Positions 1 through 53,323 of a DNA stretch of 53,323 bases are shown piece by piece. The DNA is from Tardiphaga robiniae. GTDB taxonomy: Bacteria; Pseudomonadota; Alphaproteobacteria; Rhizobiales; Xanthobacteraceae. The stretch lies in the NCBI RefSeq assembly GCF_013359755.1, contig NZ_JABMCJ010000061.1, positions 1-53,323 of the forward strand. Direction: 5' to 3'. The translations under genes and the position numbers were made by a program. The notes under the pieces were generated by a model. That model worked only from the letters and a program-made list of their open reading frames with translations. It did no database searches and was not told the DNA's origin. The first letter of the stretch is position 1. Each line of letters opens with the position of its first letter.

Positions 1-369
1 CCTTGGGACTTTAATTCGCGATCGGAGCGTTCGTCGAGGCAAAGTGCAAGCAACCGAAAAAACACCGCAGGCGGAACGTCGGGCACGCGCTCGGCGCCTC
101 CGAAAGTCCTGATGCACTCTAAATTGCGGAAAACCGCATCGCATCAGGCCCAAGGGTGCAATGGGCACCCGGCGTTCCGCACGCCCTCTCACAGGGGGCA
201 GGGAATGCAAGAGACGACGGCGCCCCCGCGCCGCAAACAATGGGGGCGATGACGCATGTCTTCAGAGCAGTGGCTGTTTGACAGTTGAATCTGCGATGGC
301 GCGTAGGCGCCAGAGGAATCCCTTCCTCAGCGTGGCTACGCCGCTTGGGGGAGGAGCAGGAAGAGCGTG
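1..369. other. Intergenic DNA with a run of hairpins, no supported gene
   Basis: I see no convincing protein gene here. Several inverted repeats lie close together: CCTGATGC (108-115) pairs with GCATCAGG (141-148) around an inner GCGG-AAAA-CCGC hairpin; GGGTGC (154-159) pairs with GCACCC (165-170); GGCGT (171-175) pairs with ACGCC (181-185); and a CGCCCCC/GGGGGCG pair lies around 210-238. The chain could be an unrecognised structured RNA or palindromic repeat DNA. The plus-strand reading frame at 161-388 runs through these hairpins, has no recognisable domain and enters the 3' end of the next gene, so I do not call it. Confidence 0.35.
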
Positions 370-30800: not shown

Positions 30801-31711
30801 CCGACAGCGTGGTCGGCGAAGTCGCGACGTCGCTCTATGCCGATGCGCAGAAGATGCTCAAGCAGATCGTCGAGGAGAAGTGGTTCACGGCGAAGGCAAC
30901 CATCGGCTTCTGGCCGGCCAACGCCGTGGGCGACGACATCCGCCTCTATGCCGATGACACCCGCACAACCGAGATCGCGACGCTCTACACGTTGCGCCAG
31001 CAGCTCGAAAAGCGCGAGGGTCGCTTCAACGCCGCGCTTTCCGACTTCATCGCGCCGAAGACCTCGAATGTGCCGGATTATATCGGCGGCTTCGTCGTCA
31101 CCGCGGGCATCGGCGAGGATATTATCGCCGATCGCTTCAAGAACGCCAATGACGACTACTCGTCAATCTTGTGCAAGGCACTGGCCGACCGTCTCGCCGA
31201 AGCCTTTGCAGAACGCATGCATGAGCGCGTGCGCAAGGAGTTCTGGGCCTATACGCCGGACGAGAACATCTCGACCGACGACCTGATCCTGGAGAAGTAT
31301 CAGGGCATCCGCCCTGCTCCCGGCTATCCCGCACAGCCCGATCACACCGAGAAGGCGACGATCTTCAAATTGCTCGATGCGGAGAACACTGCGGGCGTAA
31401 CACTCACCGAAAGCTACGCCATGTGGCCGGGCTCGTCGGTGTCCGGGCTCTATTTCAGCCATCCCGAGAGCTATTATTTCGGCGTCGGCAAGATCGAGCG
31501 CGATCAGGTCGAGGAATATGCCGCGCGCAAGAACATGAGCGTGGCCGAGGTGGAACGTTGGCTGGCGCCGGTGCTGAACTACATTCCGGGTGCCGAGCCT
31601 GCGCCGGTCGCCGTACCCGCGCCTGCCAATGACGAACTCGCGACCCATCCGCCGGGATGTAACTGCGCGGTGCATTTGATGTATCGCGGCAAGAAGGTCG
31701 GAGCGAAGTAG
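27872..31711 (+). CDS. metH: Cobalamin-dependent methionine synthase
   Basis: A full-length 1279-aa MetH that methylates homocysteine using methylcobalamin and 5-methyltetrahydrofolate. The modules appear in order: homocysteine domain (zinc ligands Cys250, Cys313, Cys314; DGAMGTM near residue 25), pterin domain ([13 protein letters not shown] near 355), cobalamin cap and binding domains (D768-V-H770-D-I-G motif, His770 being the lower axial ligand), and the C-terminal S-adenosylmethionine reactivation domain (from about residue 930; [15 protein letters not shown]). A short extra C-terminal tail contains GCNCAVH, not part of the classical domains. Structured repeat copy A follows about 50 nt downstream. 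Confidence 0.97.
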
Positions 31712-31764
31712 CGCTTTGCAAGTCGCAGGATGTGCTTGTCAAACAGCCAAGCTCTCGCATTCTC

Positions 31765-32154
31765 GCGGCGCTTGCGCGTCCGAGGTATGAGCAGTCCCCC
31801 TCAAACGATGAGGGGTGGCGGCGCGCCGTGAGGCGCAAAGGGTGGTTTTATCGCGATCCGCTCCACCGGAACGCCGGCAAGCTGCAACCGCGCAACGCCT
31901 CACGGCGCGCCACCGCGGCGATTTCTGTCCCCGGGACCGTTGTTCCGGGCAAAGGCGCAGAGCTCCGCACTCCGCTGATCCCGACGGTTTCCCGCCGTTC
32001 ACCAATGCCACGTCCAGCCAGCATGAGTGGCAGACCCCCGTAGTGGGGCCGGACGGTGACCCAAGACCTCCCGAGTGCGCGGGGTACGTCACCCCACACC
32101 CGCAGGCGCCGCATCCCTGTCCACTTCAAGACGCCTCTAGAAGCGCCCCTCGCG
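31765..32154 (+). ncRNA. Structured repeat element, copy A (candidate RNA)
   Basis: Hairpin-rich element with a second copy at 52935-53323. The core at 31918-32079 matches 53096-53257 at 156 of 162 positions without gaps. Visible helices include CCCCTC/GAGGGG (31797-31802 with 31810-31815); GCGCC-GTGA-GGCGC (31823-31836, a GNRA tetraloop); CCGG-AACG-CCGG (31866-31877); CCGCG/CGCGG (31888-31892 with 31914-31918); CCCGGGA/TTCCGGG (31930-31949); and GGGGT-ACGTC-ACCCC (32081-32095). In addition CGTCC (32011-32015) pairs with GGACG (32051-32055) around two inner hairpins, GCCA/TGGC and CCCC/GGGG, giving a three-way junction. The GNRA loop supports plus-strand transcription. The boundaries are approximate and the family is not one I can name. 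Confidence 0.6.
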
Positions 32155-32342
32155 AACGGGATAGAAGGCATATAGACCTATATAGGATTTTCGTCAATAG
32201 GGCGTGAGGGATTATTTTCTCTCTACCACCGCCGCGACGAATTCCGCTCCCGGCAAAGTTATCGTTTCAATCCCGTGGCGACGGAACGATCAGGAAGGCC
32301 GCAGCTTGTCGTATGCGCAATATTTGCGTTTGGAGGGTTGAA

Positions 32343-35571: not shown

Positions 35572-35679
35572 GGGAACTCTCCAGCTGCGGCTATCCGTGC
35601 GCCCGAAATGTTAAAAAACGGGAAAGGATTGAGGCAGGCGGCAAGTGGCTACCGCCGGAGGTTTGTTTCGCGGGATTTC

Positions 35680-35833
35680 TTACCCTCCCCTGCAGGGGGA
35701 GGGTCGGCGATCATCGCGCGCAGCGCGGTGAGAGGCGGCGTGGGGTGAAGCTGCGGGCGACAGCGTCTGTGGCTTCACCCCACCCCGACGAACGCTACGC
35801 GTTCGTCGACCCTCCCCCTTCAGGGGAGGGTAA
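35680..35833. repeat. BIME-like palindromic repeat
   Basis: TTACCCTCCCCTG (35680-35692) is the exact reverse complement of CAGGGGAGGGTAA (35821-35833). Inner pairs include CGTGGGGTGAAGC-like with GCTTCACCCCACCC-like arms and ACGAACGC/GCGTTCGT. It fills the gap between the SDR gene and the FAD oxidoreductase gene on the minus strand. It is probably a mobile or dispersed extragenic palindrome. Confidence 0.8.
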
Positions 35834-35838
35834 GGACG

Positions 35839-38012: not shown

Positions 38013-38175
38013 CCTAACCTCTCCCCGCTTGCGGGGAGAGGTTAGGGCGAGCGAAGCGGAGCCTTCGGGTGAGGGGGACTATCCGCGGGCACCGGGCCGG
38101 CGGAGGCTCCCCCTCATCCGGTCCGAATGCGCTACGCGCAATCGGACCACCTTCTCCCCGCAAGCGGGGAGAAGG
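38013..38175. repeat. BIME-like palindromic repeat between pimC and pimD
   Basis: Starts with a perfect hairpin, CCTAACCTCTCCCCGC/GCGGGGAGAGGTTAGG (38013-38046). The middle has GAGGGGGA and TCCCCCTC arms, and it ends with CCTTCTCCCCGC/GCGGGGAGAAGG (about 38150-38175). The reverse complement aligns with the repeat at 36653-36806. It occupies almost the whole gap between the two dehydrogenase genes. Confidence 0.85.
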
Positions 38176-49132: not shown

Positions 49133-50362
49133 ATGAACTGCAGAAACTTTCTGCGCACCGCCGCGCTCTCGAGCGCGGCGTTTGCGTTTCTCGCCTTCTC
49201 AACTTCCGCGAATGCCCAGAAGAAATACGACACCGGGGCGAGCGATACCGAGATCAAGATCGGCAACATCATTCCCTATAGCGGCCCGGCTTCGGCCTAC
49301 GGCATCATCGGGAAGATGGAAGAAGCCTACTTCAAGATGATCAACGATCAGGGCGGTATCAACGGCCGCAAGATCACCTTCGTCAGCTATGACGATGCCT
49401 ACAGCCCGGCCAAGGCTGTGGAACAGACCCGCAAGCTCGTCGAATCCGACGAAGTTCTGTTCGTGTTCGGTCCGCTCGGCACGCCGTCGAACACCGCGAT
49501 CATGAAATACCTGAACGCCAAGAAGATCCCGCAGCTGTTCGTCGCCACCGGCGCGACCAAGTTCGGCGAGTACAAGACCGCGCCATGGACGATGGGCTGG
49601 CAGCCAGCCTATCAGAGCGAAGGCCGCATCTTCGCGCAATACGCGATCACCGAGAAGCCGAACGGCAAGATCGCCGTGTTCTACCAGAACGACGACCTCG
49701 GCAAGGACATGCTGAAGGGCCTCAAGGACGGCCTCGGCGAGAAGGCCTCGATGATCGTGGCTGAAGACAGCTATGAAGTATCCGAGCCGACCATCGACTC
49801 GCACATCGTCAAGATGAAGGCATCGGGCGCCGACATCTTCGTCTCGATCTCGACGCCGAAATTCGCCGCGCAGGCGATCAAGAAGGTGGCCGAGATCGGC
49901 TGGAAGCCGATGTTCTTCCAGAGCAATGTCGGCTCCTCGGTCGGCGCAGTGATGCGTCCCGCCGGCATCGACAACGCGCAGGGCGTGCTGTCGCTGGCCT
50001 ATGCCAAGGATGCCATCGATCCGCAGTGGAAGGACGATGAGGGCATGAAGAAGTATCTCGACTTCCTGGCCAAATACGCCCCCTTCGCCAATCCCGCCGA
50101 AAGCTCGGCTGCTTATGGATACGGCCAGGCACAGACCGTGGTTCAGGTCCTCAAGCAGGCCGGCGACGACCTGACCCGTGCCAACATCATGAAACAGGCC
50201 GCCAGCCTGAAGGACTTCGCACCCGACACGTTGCTGCCGGGCGTCAAGATCAACACCTCGGCGACCGACTTCTACCCGATCGAGCAACTGCGCATGATGC
50301 GCTTCACCGGCGAGAAGTGGGACGTGTTCGGCCCGCCGATCGACAGCAAGCTCGGCGGGTAA
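49133..50362 (+). CDS. ABC importer substrate-binding protein (first of tandem pair)
   Basis: A 409-aa periplasmic type I binding protein of the Leu/Ile/Val-binding superfamily. It has a signal peptide with cut near ANAQKK; the mature part starts with KYDTGASDTEIKIGNIIPYS and contains NDQGGINGRKITFVSYDDAY. Roughly three quarters of residues match the second copy at 50655. In Rhodopseudomonas palustris, binding proteins near the pim locus are linked to dicarboxylate or fatty acid uptake, so I infer such a ligand here; the sequence alone does not prove it. It is translated from GAGGA directly after livM. Confidence 0.85.
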   Translation: MNCRNFLRTAALSSAAFAFLAFSTSANAQKKYDTGASDTEIKIGNIIPYSGPASAYGIIGKMEEAYFKMINDQGGINGRKITFVSYDDAYSPAKAVEQTRKLVESDEVLFVFGPLGTPSNTAIMKYLNAKKIPQLFVATGATKFGEYKTAPWTMGWQPAYQSEGRIFAQYAITEKPNGKIAVFYQNDDLGKDMLKGLKDGLGEKASMIVAEDSYEVSEPTIDSHIVKMKASGADIFVSISTPKFAAQAIKKVAEIGWKPMFFQSNVGSSVGAVMRPAGIDNAQGVLSLAYAKDAIDPQWKDDEGMKKYLDFLAKYAPFANPAESSAAYGYGQAQTVVQVLKQAGDDLTRANIMKQAASLKDFAPDTLLPGVKINTSATDFYPIEQLRMMRFTGEKWDVFGPPIDSKLGG

Positions 50363-50370
50363 ACTCAACC

Positions 50371-50498
50371 GTCATTCCGGGATGCCCGAAAGGCGACGAA
50401 GTCGACTGAAGGGTAGACCCGGAATCTCGACATGAGTGATGAACAATACGAGGTTCCGGGTTCGCACGCGCGAAGGCGCGCATACGCCCCGGAACGAC
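50371..50498. repeat. BIME-like palindromic repeat between the two binding-protein genes
   Basis: GTCATTCCGGG at the left end is mirrored by CCCCGGAACGAC at the right end, with inner pairs such as GACCCGGAAT with GTTCCGGGTTC and a CGCGCG hairpin. It starts 8 nt after the first binding-protein gene and precedes a terminator. It is a dispersed palindromic repeat of a different subfamily from those in the pim operon. Confidence 0.75.
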
Positions 50499-50519
50499 AG
50501 CGATAATGCCCAATAAAAC

Positions 50520-50554
50520 AGCCCCTTACGACGAAAGTCGTGAGGGGCTTTTTC
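50520..50554 (+). terminator. Rho-independent terminator after the liv-type operon
   Basis: AGCCCCTTACGAC (50520-50532) pairs with GTCGTGAGGGGCT (50537-50549) around a GAAA tetraloop, with one T-G wobble, and is followed by TTTTTC. It ends the transcript containing the first binding-protein gene, so the second copy likely has its own promoter in the next 100 nt. Confidence 0.92.
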
Positions 50555-50654
50555 TTGCCAGTTGCAGTGGAAAAGTATTCAATCCAACGCGCCGCAGCAT
50601 TCAACAAAAAACAAGAATACGCGCGGCTTCATCAAATGATCAGGGAGATCAGAA

Positions 50655-51884
50655 ATGCCTTCGTTCAGCTCGCGTGCAATGACGTTCACGGTTGCCGCAG
50701 CCCTCAGTGCGGCCCTTGGCGGTACTGCCTTCGCCCAGAAAAAATACGACACCGGCGCCAGCGATACCGAGATCAAGATCGGCAACATCATGCCCTATAG
50801 CGGGCCCGCATCCGCCTATGGCGTGATCGGCAAGATGGAAGAAGCCTATTTCAAGATGATCAACGATCAGGGTGGCATCAACGGCCGCAAGATCAATTAC
50901 ATCACCTATGACGACGGCTACTCGCCGCCTAAGGCTGTGGAGCAGGCGCGCAAGCTCGTCGAGTCGGACGAAGTATTGTTCATCGCCAGCTCGCTCGGAA
51001 CCCCGTCGAACTCCGCCATTCAGAAATACATGAATGCGAAGAAAGTCCCGCAACTGTTCGTGGCCACCGGCGCCACCAAGTTCGGCGACTACAAGGACTT
51101 CCCCTGGACCATGGGCTGGCAGCCTGCCTATCAGAGCGAGTCCAGGATCTATGCAGCCTATCTGCTGAGGGAAAAGCCCGACGCCAAGATCGCGATCATG
51201 TACCAGAACGATGATTTCGGTAAGGACATGCTGAAGGGTCTGAAGGATGGTCTCGGCGCCAAGGCTGCATCGATGATCGTCGCCGAGGAAAGCTATGAAG
51301 TGTCGGAGCCGACCATCGAGTCCCATATCGTCAAGCTGAAGTCGACCAATGCCGACACCTTTGTCAGCTTCACCACGCCGAAATTCGCTGCGCAGGCGAT
51401 CAAGAAAGTGGCGGAGCTCAGCTGGAAACCGACCTTCATCCAGAGCAATGTCGGCTCTTCGGTCGGCGGCGTGATGAAGCCGGCGGGTTACGAGATCGCC
51501 CAGGGCATCCTGTCGGCGAACTACGCCAAGGACGGCGCCGATTCCAGCTGGGACAATGACGAGGGCATGAAGAAATTCTACGCCTTCCTCGCCAAATATG
51601 CGCCCACCATGGACAGGAGCGACGGCTCGGTCGTCTATGGCTATGGCCAGGCGCAGACCATCGTTCAGGTGCTCAAGCAGGCCGGTGACAACCTGACCCG
51701 CGCGAACATCATGAAGGAAGCAGCCAACCTCAAGGAATTCGCGCCCGACACATTGCTGCCCGGCGTGACCATTTCGACCTCGGCGACCGACTTCTACCCG
51801 ATCGAGCAGCTGCAGATGCAGCGCTTCAAGGGCGAGAAGTGGGAGCTGTTCGGCCCGATCATCGCGGGCAAGATCGACGGCTGA
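50655..51884 (+). CDS. ABC importer substrate-binding protein (second of tandem pair)
   Basis: A 409-aa close paralogue of the protein encoded at 49133, equal in length. The signal peptide (TFTVAAALSAALGGTAFAQ) differs, while the mature parts are closely alike (KYDTGASDTEIKIGNIMPYS). Differences occur mainly in short blocks such as FVFGPLG versus FIASSLG, which lies where this family contacts ligand, so the pair may bind different chain lengths. AGGGAG at 50642-50647 is the ribosome site. It stands behind a terminator, hence may be expressed separately while using the same LivGFHM transporter. Confidence 0.85.
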   Translation: MPSFSSRAMTFTVAAALSAALGGTAFAQKKYDTGASDTEIKIGNIMPYSGPASAYGVIGKMEEAYFKMINDQGGINGRKINYITYDDGYSPPKAVEQARKLVESDEVLFIASSLGTPSNSAIQKYMNAKKVPQLFVATGATKFGDYKDFPWTMGWQPAYQSESRIYAAYLLREKPDAKIAIMYQNDDFGKDMLKGLKDGLGAKAASMIVAEESYEVSEPTIESHIVKLKSTNADTFVSFTTPKFAAQAIKKVAELSWKPTFIQSNVGSSVGGVMKPAGYEIAQGILSANYAKDGADSSWDNDEGMKKFYAFLAKYAPTMDRSDGSVVYGYGQAQTIVQVLKQAGDNLTRANIMKEAANLKEFAPDTLLPGVTISTSATDFYPIEQLQMQRFKGEKWELFGPIIAGKIDG

Positions 51885-52934: not shown

Positions 52935-53323
52935 CTTGCCCGCGCCTGAGCGCGTGAGTGGCAGTCCCGGTGCTCTCCCTCGAAAATGAGGGAGATGAAG
53001 CGCCGAAAGGCGCGACTTGGTAACAGTGCCGCAGCGTAGTGTCCGGATCGCCGGACAGCAGAGGCCGCGGAAACGCCTTTCGACGCTCCACCGTGGCGAT
53101 TTCTGTCCCCGGGACCGTTCTTCCGGGCAAAGGCGCAGACCTCCGCAGTCCGCTTATCCCGACGGTTTCCCGCCGTTCACCGATGCCACGTCCAGCCAGC
53201 ATGAGTGGCAGACCCCCGTAGTGGGGCCGGACGGTGACCCAAGGCCTCCCGAGTGCGTGAGGGAACGTCTCCCTCCCGCCCGCAGGCGCCACATCCCGCC
53301 CCGCGCTAACAAGCGTCCCTGGC
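52935..53323 (+). ncRNA. Structured repeat element, copy B (candidate RNA), cut by window end
   Basis: Second copy of the element at 31765-32154, same orientation. The core 53096-53257 is 96% identical to copy A. The flanking helices keep the same order with different sequence: TCTCCCTC/GAGGGAGA (52974-52981 with 52988-52995), GCGCC-GAAA-GGCGC (53000-53013, again a GNRA tetraloop), TGTCCGG/CCGGACA (53040-53057), CCGCGG/CCGTGG (53065-53070 with 53091-53096), and GAGGGA-ACGTC-TCCCTC (53059 offset region 53259-53275: GAGGGA after GCGT, loop ACGTC, then TCCCTC). The small reading frame at 53039-53221 and the opposite-strand frame at 52867-53292 fall inside it and are probably not genes. The 3' boundary is beyond the window. 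Confidence 0.6.

Follow-up and report, generated by a model that had tools for sequence, protein, structure and literature searches.

A multi-copy structured RNA of about 430 nt and a linked small Cys4 protein: a candidate RNA-protein system in Tardiphaga and related bacteria

The stretch of Tardiphaga robiniae DNA analysed here (the window, 53,323 nt) carries two copies of a structured, non-coding RNA element, predicted to be about 430 nt long, that recurs throughout the genome and in related bacteria (family F1). In many genomes one type of copy (type B) runs directly into the gene for a small basic protein with four invariant cysteines, here called Cys4, and other copies (type A) stand alone. 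Sequence comparison establishes the RNA, its strand, a promoter-like sequence, an rRNA-like box in part of the copies and the pairing with the Cys4 gene. Tentatively, and with slightly less than even confidence, we propose that the copies are RNA genes within an RNA-protein system in which the Cys4 protein would bind its own leader and the stand-alone copies would act in trans. The features of the window on which this proposal rests are collected in Table 1.

Table 1. Features of F1, F2 and the Cys4 gene in the window.
Feature	Position	Strand	Basis and remarks
Copy 1, predicted ~430-nt RNA, type A, stand-alone	31733..32162	-	Alignment A1, 27 copies; both ends predicted
Promoter-like sequence of copy 1	32169..32197	-	TTGACG - 17 nt - TATATG, read directly
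5' closing helix P1 (CTATCCCGTTC / GGACAGGGATGCGG) around hairpin 32130-32149	32109..32164	-	8/9 pairs with two-sided changes, 88% of cells paired
Core of copy 1, branched domain closed by GGG..ACCGU/ACGGU..CCC	31932..32113	-	Covariance model R1 (181 positions)
Long hairpin (GGTGGCGCGCCGTGAGGCG..CGCCTCACGGCGCGCCGCC)	31817..31914	-	19 pairs, 8 with two-sided changes, 97.5% of cells paired
C-rich hairpin CCCCTC..GAGGGG	31797..31815	-	Read directly
3' hairpin CTCGGACGCGCAAGCGCCGCGAG, type A tail	31762..31784	-	Read directly
3' box TGGCTGTTTGACA of copy 1, resembling a 16S rRNA leader sequence	31737..31749	-	
Core of copy 2 (type B)	53110..53293	-	Covariance model R1, 5.7e-34; promoter beyond contig end
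Cys4 protein gene, 105 aa	52553..52870	-	ATG 239 nt after RNA core of copy 2; GGGAG precedes
F2, 3' part: long hairpin, C-rich hairpin, 3' hairpin, box (271-283)	1..293	+	Alignment of 8 F2 copies

Direct comparison of positions 31918-32079 with 53096-53257 reproduced the ungapped 162-nt core with exactly six differences that an initial annotation of the window had described, and a repeat search of the window returned an ungapped pair of 191 nt at 93%. The longer recurrence of about 390 nt claimed in the same annotation held in part: the repeat is real, but what recurs at the second window copy is no more than about 250 of the 390 nt (query 102-353, 89%), since the element comes with two kinds of ends, A and B. 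The suggestion that the element is multi-copy was confirmed by searching the whole genome (6.3 Mb in 94 contigs, the window being contig C66), which gave 19 places, 17 of them containing element sequence and the other two 33-38 nt of the 3' tail only. Ten pieces at contig ends pair into five copies when their flanks are compared with contiguous relatives, so the 17 places probably represent about 12 loci. Contig ends hold 10 of the 17 F1 places and many sites of a second family, F2; both ends of the window contig fall inside repeats (F2 on the left, F1 on the right), and the flanks of L014 and L185 indicate that contig C91 continues copy 2. The element family would account for a number of the assembly breaks in this genome. 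Four features had escaped the initial annotation: the promoter-like sequence on the minus strand, the 3' box in common with the rRNA leader, the related family F2 at the left end of the window and the Cys4 gene that follows copy 2.

Covariation among copies shows a folded RNA in which a closing helix is joined by a branched core and a long hairpin. Alignment A1 (27 copies) has 83 consensus pairs, 40 with two-sided changes, and 95.3% of its cells are paired; none of 500 shuffles was equally good on any of five measures. Since this structure was predicted from the alignment itself, a separate count was made with the core model R1 on 42 sequences from named loci and other families, in which 25 of 38 pairs had two-sided changes, with 142 such cells compared to 33.7 in shuffles (0/500), and sliding the partners by 1-3 columns lowered pairing from 95.7% to 39-57%. 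Removing one sequence equal to a training row and another close to one left 40 sequences, with 135 two-sided cells over 25 of 38 pairs and again 0/500 shuffles as good; all of these sequences were aligned by fit to R1, which biases the alignment toward that model. The result agrees with the earlier suggestion of a structured RNA family and adds strong covariation to it.

The two hairpins that the initial annotation had noted in the core were also recovered, with two-sided changes in 5/6 and 3/4 pairs, one pair of the second hairpin being unpaired in 24 of 42 sequences. The CGUCC/GGACG helix that had been drawn as closing the junction fared worse, with 3 double-change cells versus 19 for a competing ACCGU/ACGGU helix that uses the same CGU. 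Both helices are almost always complementary, and a switch between them is therefore possible. The long hairpin is compensated in other copies, for example as CGCCGAAAGGCG..CGCCTTTCGGCG. Copies L011, L012 and L027 have an extra hairpin-like insert of about 33 nt (CTAGCAGTCGCAGACT..) directly 5' of it.

The initial annotation had read the element from the plus strand, and this orientation did not survive comparison. Of 1564 pair cells in the 42 sequences, 1497 are standard on the minus strand versus 1385 on the plus strand, and 128 G.U versus 16 A.C cells likewise favour minus. This asymmetry, together with the promoter-like sequence 5' of the conserved end, leads us to read the element from the minus strand. 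Transcription of copy 1 is expected to start near 32162, and the predicted RNA is convergent, without overlap, with a 1279-aa ORF ending at 31711, metH according to the initial annotation. Most listed copies reaching that far have TTGAC-N17-TATNNT before the conserved 5' end. Among 68 named copies with sufficient upstream sequence, 43 agree with the consensus at nine or more of its 12 bases (mean 8.9, compared to 7.1 in shuffles), TTGA[CT]-N16..19-TAnnnK is present in 40, and the best -35 sits 83-91 nt 5' of the core in 54. Copies from other genera or families (L104, L128, L143, L239, L244, L268 and L269, the last four judged by eye) have a different -35-like sequence, TTATCCCC or AATCCCCG, at the promoter position, and several copies have an AT-rich stretch 5' of the promoter, also seen by eye.

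Long ORFs cross the element on both strands, as is usual at such G+C content, and could be taken to mean that it is a degenerate protein-coding repeat of overlapping hypothetical ORFs. We give that reading practically no credence: all six frames are interrupted by a stop in 27 of 59 copies, the pairing changes are compensatory, and core lengths are spread over all classes modulo 3 (27/20/20 of 67), in line with the earlier remark that the core bears no sign of protein selection. The coding interpretation is already contradicted by these data.

Behind type B copies the sequence opens a reading frame, with its start codon and ribosome site, for a basic Cys4 protein. The protein is arginine-rich and has the motif C-x4-C-x-R-x3-C-x6/8-C with four invariant cysteines, which may bind metal; 18 such proteins, 18-36% identical to the one in the window, keep all four cysteines and one arginine. 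A profile of the core of the protein (A6, 18 rows, threshold E<=0.001), built from proteins beside the RNAs, matched 118 of 296 genomes of the host's family, with one to four matches each. Across the same 296 genomes, 108 had both RNA and protein, 33 RNA only, 10 protein only and 145 neither (Fisher p = 2.6e-38, in a test that treats genomes as free of shared ancestry). The unmatched genomes, 33 of 141 RNA-bearing and 10 of 118 protein-bearing, may in part reflect incomplete genomes and the caps set on the searches.

Among 30 Cys4 loci retrieved, one per genome, the R1 core lies upstream on the same strand in 29; 17 of the 30 contain a profile row and are therefore not independent, and the core is upstream in 12 of the 13 loci without one. 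The exception, L336, has a Cys4 protein without a normal N-terminus and is without the RNA. The start codon follows the core end by 163-248 nt in 25 of the 29 loci, two more not being placed by the pattern and two having an uncertain start. RNA and Cys4 gene also occur together once in another family of the order (L243). Not every type B copy is followed by the gene: at one locus (seen in L010, L050 and L088) no ORF was found, and in L008, L025, L048, L139 and L194 an ORF is present without the Cys4 motif.

Scanning ten Cys4 proteins against Pfam and NCBIfam gave chance-level matches only, and PDB sequences contained no significant relative. An AlphaFold2 model of the protein was confident (mean pLDDT 92.5, pTM 0.74), with helices at 5-45, 48-51, 55-60, 69-73 and 81-104; a fold search of this model against the PDB gave no match (best E 4.7). 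A phage origin was considered and rejected, as PHROGs gave nothing significant: 18 members drew six families, each of them through a single protein, with a best E of 0.013.

We favour the RNA-plus-protein reading on the ground that the gene following the RNA is the same, in a fixed orientation, across genera, and the other neighbours vary. Around 77 named loci, analysed with a crude gene finder, the downstream gene shares the strand of the element in 29 cases and lies on the opposite one in 33; for the upstream gene the numbers are 30 and 15. The even downstream split led us to reject type A copies as cis-regulators of one kind of downstream gene. The upstream same-strand excess is a feature that the RNA-protein explanation leaves over.

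At E<=1e-4, R1 matched 141 of 296 family genomes in 30 of 47 genera, and copy numbers from this search are at-least values, up to nine candidates per genome having been scored. Named hosts include Tardiphaga, Rhodopseudomonas and Pseudolabrys as well as MAGs. In a sample of the order, 10 of 397 genomes matched. Seven of the ten belong to other families; more than one match was present in five of the seven, most scores were weak, and the element layout can be traced in the sequences of the matches outside the family. A class sample (385 genomes, strict filters) gave no match except the element's own genome. Phage and plasmid records had no blastn match, and one exact pattern searched in viral contigs was not found.

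A selfish RNA element, in which type B with Cys4 would be the autonomous form and the stand-alone copies non-autonomous forms spread through it or by recombination, is the main and a serious rival, although we consider it somewhat unlikely. Such an element would be multi-copy, as observed, and indifferent to the strand of the downstream gene (29 same, 33 opposite), and its presence would vary between relatives. Variation of this kind is seen at one intergenic site compared in 12 genomes, which holds F1 in G013 and G009, F2 in G012, a box-like remnant in G015 and nothing in the other eight; the flanks are too diverged to fix an insertion boundary. However, all 12 loci of this genome (G000) have at least one flank in common with a copy in G001, G016 or G005, and some loci are common to more distant genomes too. 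The promoter-like sequence and structure are intact, and the Cys4 fold matches neither an enzyme nor any other structure, which also speaks against mobility. Two copies in G001 (L187, L188) have no flank-sharing partner. At two loci (L197, L198, L203, L205, L216 and L017) the downstream flank is conserved and the upstream flank differs in each genome; by eye, the upstream-flank genes there resemble defence-type cargo (ATPases, ParA, RelA/SpoT-like).

Identity between copies shows that they are homogenised, as judged from their sequences. In G011 and G013 the closest paralogues are 96-98% alike and the remaining ones as little as 78-89%, compared to 74-81% for orthologues of those loci. At L225, a third locus, paralogues reach 83-86% and orthologues 68-69%. 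Among the closest genomes (L190), likeness is about the same for both, at 92.8% versus 88-92%. We read the greater likeness of paralogues as concerted evolution.

F2 is a second multi-copy, RNA-like family with the same layout as F1 and 563-586 nt from promoter to box. Further F2 copies were found at L157, L159, L161, L018, L277-L279 and L285, and F2 parts, often the 5' or 3' module alone, matched 58 of 198 family genomes. The F2 5' module also occurs in genus g49, which is without F1; R1 found none in the 14 genomes of g49 listed in the order sample. Modules are exchanged between families: L018 consists of an F2 body with an F1 type A tail like that at 31762-31784. One locus holds F1 in G001 and F2 in G016, G005 and G002. 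In G001 the upstream and downstream flanks of two copies are swapped relative to G000 and G016.

Such flank exchange, and the substitution of F1 and F2 for each other at one locus, would also fit a repeat that acts only as DNA, whether REP-like or a recombination hot spot, with the RNA irrelevant. We regard this as very improbable, since G.U pairs are kept on one strand, a promoter-like sequence stands at a fixed distance, the protein gene is paired in one orientation and Br-REP1 and Br-REP2 are absent inside the element. PMC5082802 describes Br-REP1 and Br-REP2 as palindromes of 20-40 nt, and mentions, without data, that in Nitrobacter, Oligotropha and Afipia Br-REP2 is surrounded by a larger repeat. 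Both they and the element are intergenic repeats in related bacteria, but identity was rejected, as their consensus does not lie inside the element (best 8/20 and 20/40 mismatches). Repeats of the form TCATTCCGGGGCGC..CCCGGAATC in the flanks of L005, L007, L157 and L277 resemble the Br-REP2 of that paper by eye. The window contains other repeats as well: a tandem duplication at 49214-51880 (stretches of 261-300 nt, 77-84% alike, spaced by about 1.52 kb) and inverted repeats at 35679-35834 and 38020-38172 (94% and 84% complementary, arms 91-92 nt apart).

The 3' end of many type A copies reads GTGGCTGTTTGA(A/C)A. Of the 66 named copies whose sequence extends far enough, 26 have this 12-nt box with at most one mismatch, compared to 0.03 expected from shuffles, and 36, type B among them, lack it even at two mismatches. 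The 16S rRNA leader of this genome contains GGGCTGTTTGACA about 260 nt before 16S. Ten genomes were queried for 16S leaders, of which one had no 16S match and one gave a fragment only, whose leader was left out; GCTGTTTGACA was found in the 16S leaders of this genome and of all eight other genomes read (two by eye). The element and the 16S leader of the same genome thus have GCTGTTTGACA in common. By its sequence the box is boxA-like; the element differs from rRNA leaders in having it at the RNA 3' end, not before 16S rRNA. Exact TGGCTGTTTGAMA sites in the genome number 23, of which 22 fall within F1 (3) or F2 (19), and the last (L160) lies within apparent coding sequence.

This concentration of exact sites in F1 and F2, the occurrence of the sequence in nine 16S leaders and the AT-rich stretch before the promoter of several copies could indicate that the RNA is a decoy or sensor of rRNA antitermination, working through Nus factors at its boxA-like 3' end, with Cys4 as a side feature. 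We think this improbable, as more than half of the named copies, type B included, are without the box and the covarying core would be left without explanation.

The element did not fall into a known RNA family. Scanning the whole window with Rfam 15 gave no match at gathering score, and at lax E-values the best matches lay far below gathering scores. The initial annotation had offered a relation to HEARO/omega-RNA (Rfam RF02033) as an option; the same scan gave no HEARO match at gathering score or at E<=10. HEARO with IscB shares the plan of a multi-copy structured RNA that has a protein-coding form and RNA-only copies, but the recurrent neighbour here is the Cys4 gene, whose product of about 105 aa is not a nuclease. 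The string ACAGAAA..CCGCC, which to us resembles RNase P, had no RNase P match at E<=10 and this identity was rejected.

OLE RNA is a single-copy RNA of about 600 nt in Gram-positive bacteria, with the membrane protein OapA. The likeness is that of a large structured bacterial RNA beside a dedicated protein gene; unlike OLE, the present element has numerous copies that stand alone, and the protein beside it is the small Cys4 protein; OLE was not matched in the Rfam 15 scan, and the neighbour at 29 of 30 loci encodes a protein without a Pfam or NCBIfam match, OapA included. In the CsrB/CsrC and RsmX-Z systems, several RNA copies titrate a small RNA-binding protein, and titration of this kind is what we propose here. 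The element, however, is a compact branched RNA, one copy of which leads the protein gene, and the protein is a different one, the Cys4 protein matching no CsrA family in Pfam or NCBIfam (for CsrB/CsrC/RsmX-Z with CsrA, see PMC5027483). By analogy, the system perhaps resembles OLE-OapA or CsrB-CsrA in its working, although the comparisons with OLE, CsrA and HEARO all failed to place it in those families. In the open-access literature we recognised no description of the RNA or protein; a 2012 paper on Bradyrhizobium/Rhodopseudomonas sRNAs possibly mentions it.

In the RNA-protein system that we propose, each copy would be transcribed from its own sigma70-type promoter, and the Cys4 protein would bind the conserved RNA core. 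Where a type B copy runs directly into the Cys4 gene, as it does in many genomes, the protein would bind its own leader and could exert feedback control. The stand-alone type A copies might then be trans-acting partner or decoy RNAs that titrate the protein, with copy number and gene conversion maintaining their dose. At the 3' end of type A, the rRNA-type box may bring in Nus factors and define where the RNA ends through Rho-dependent termination, by analogy with the boxA of E. coli suhB (PMC5725501).

Our wider view, which we hold with about even confidence, is of an undescribed Hyphomicrobiales RNA-protein system: an RNA of about 430 nt, with copy numbers per genome reaching about a dozen or more, that is gene-converted and exchangeable with F2, with a Cys4-leader master copy, copies acting in trans, and a modular superfamily (F1, F2) sharing 5' and 3' modules. 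Bacteria have few large structured RNAs, and fewer still with a protein dedicated to them. The element is also an example, outside rRNA genes, of copies that evolve in concert and of cassettes that replace one another. With a linked candidate partner, many natural variants and cultured hosts among Tardiphaga and Rhodopseudomonas strains, its function should be testable at once.
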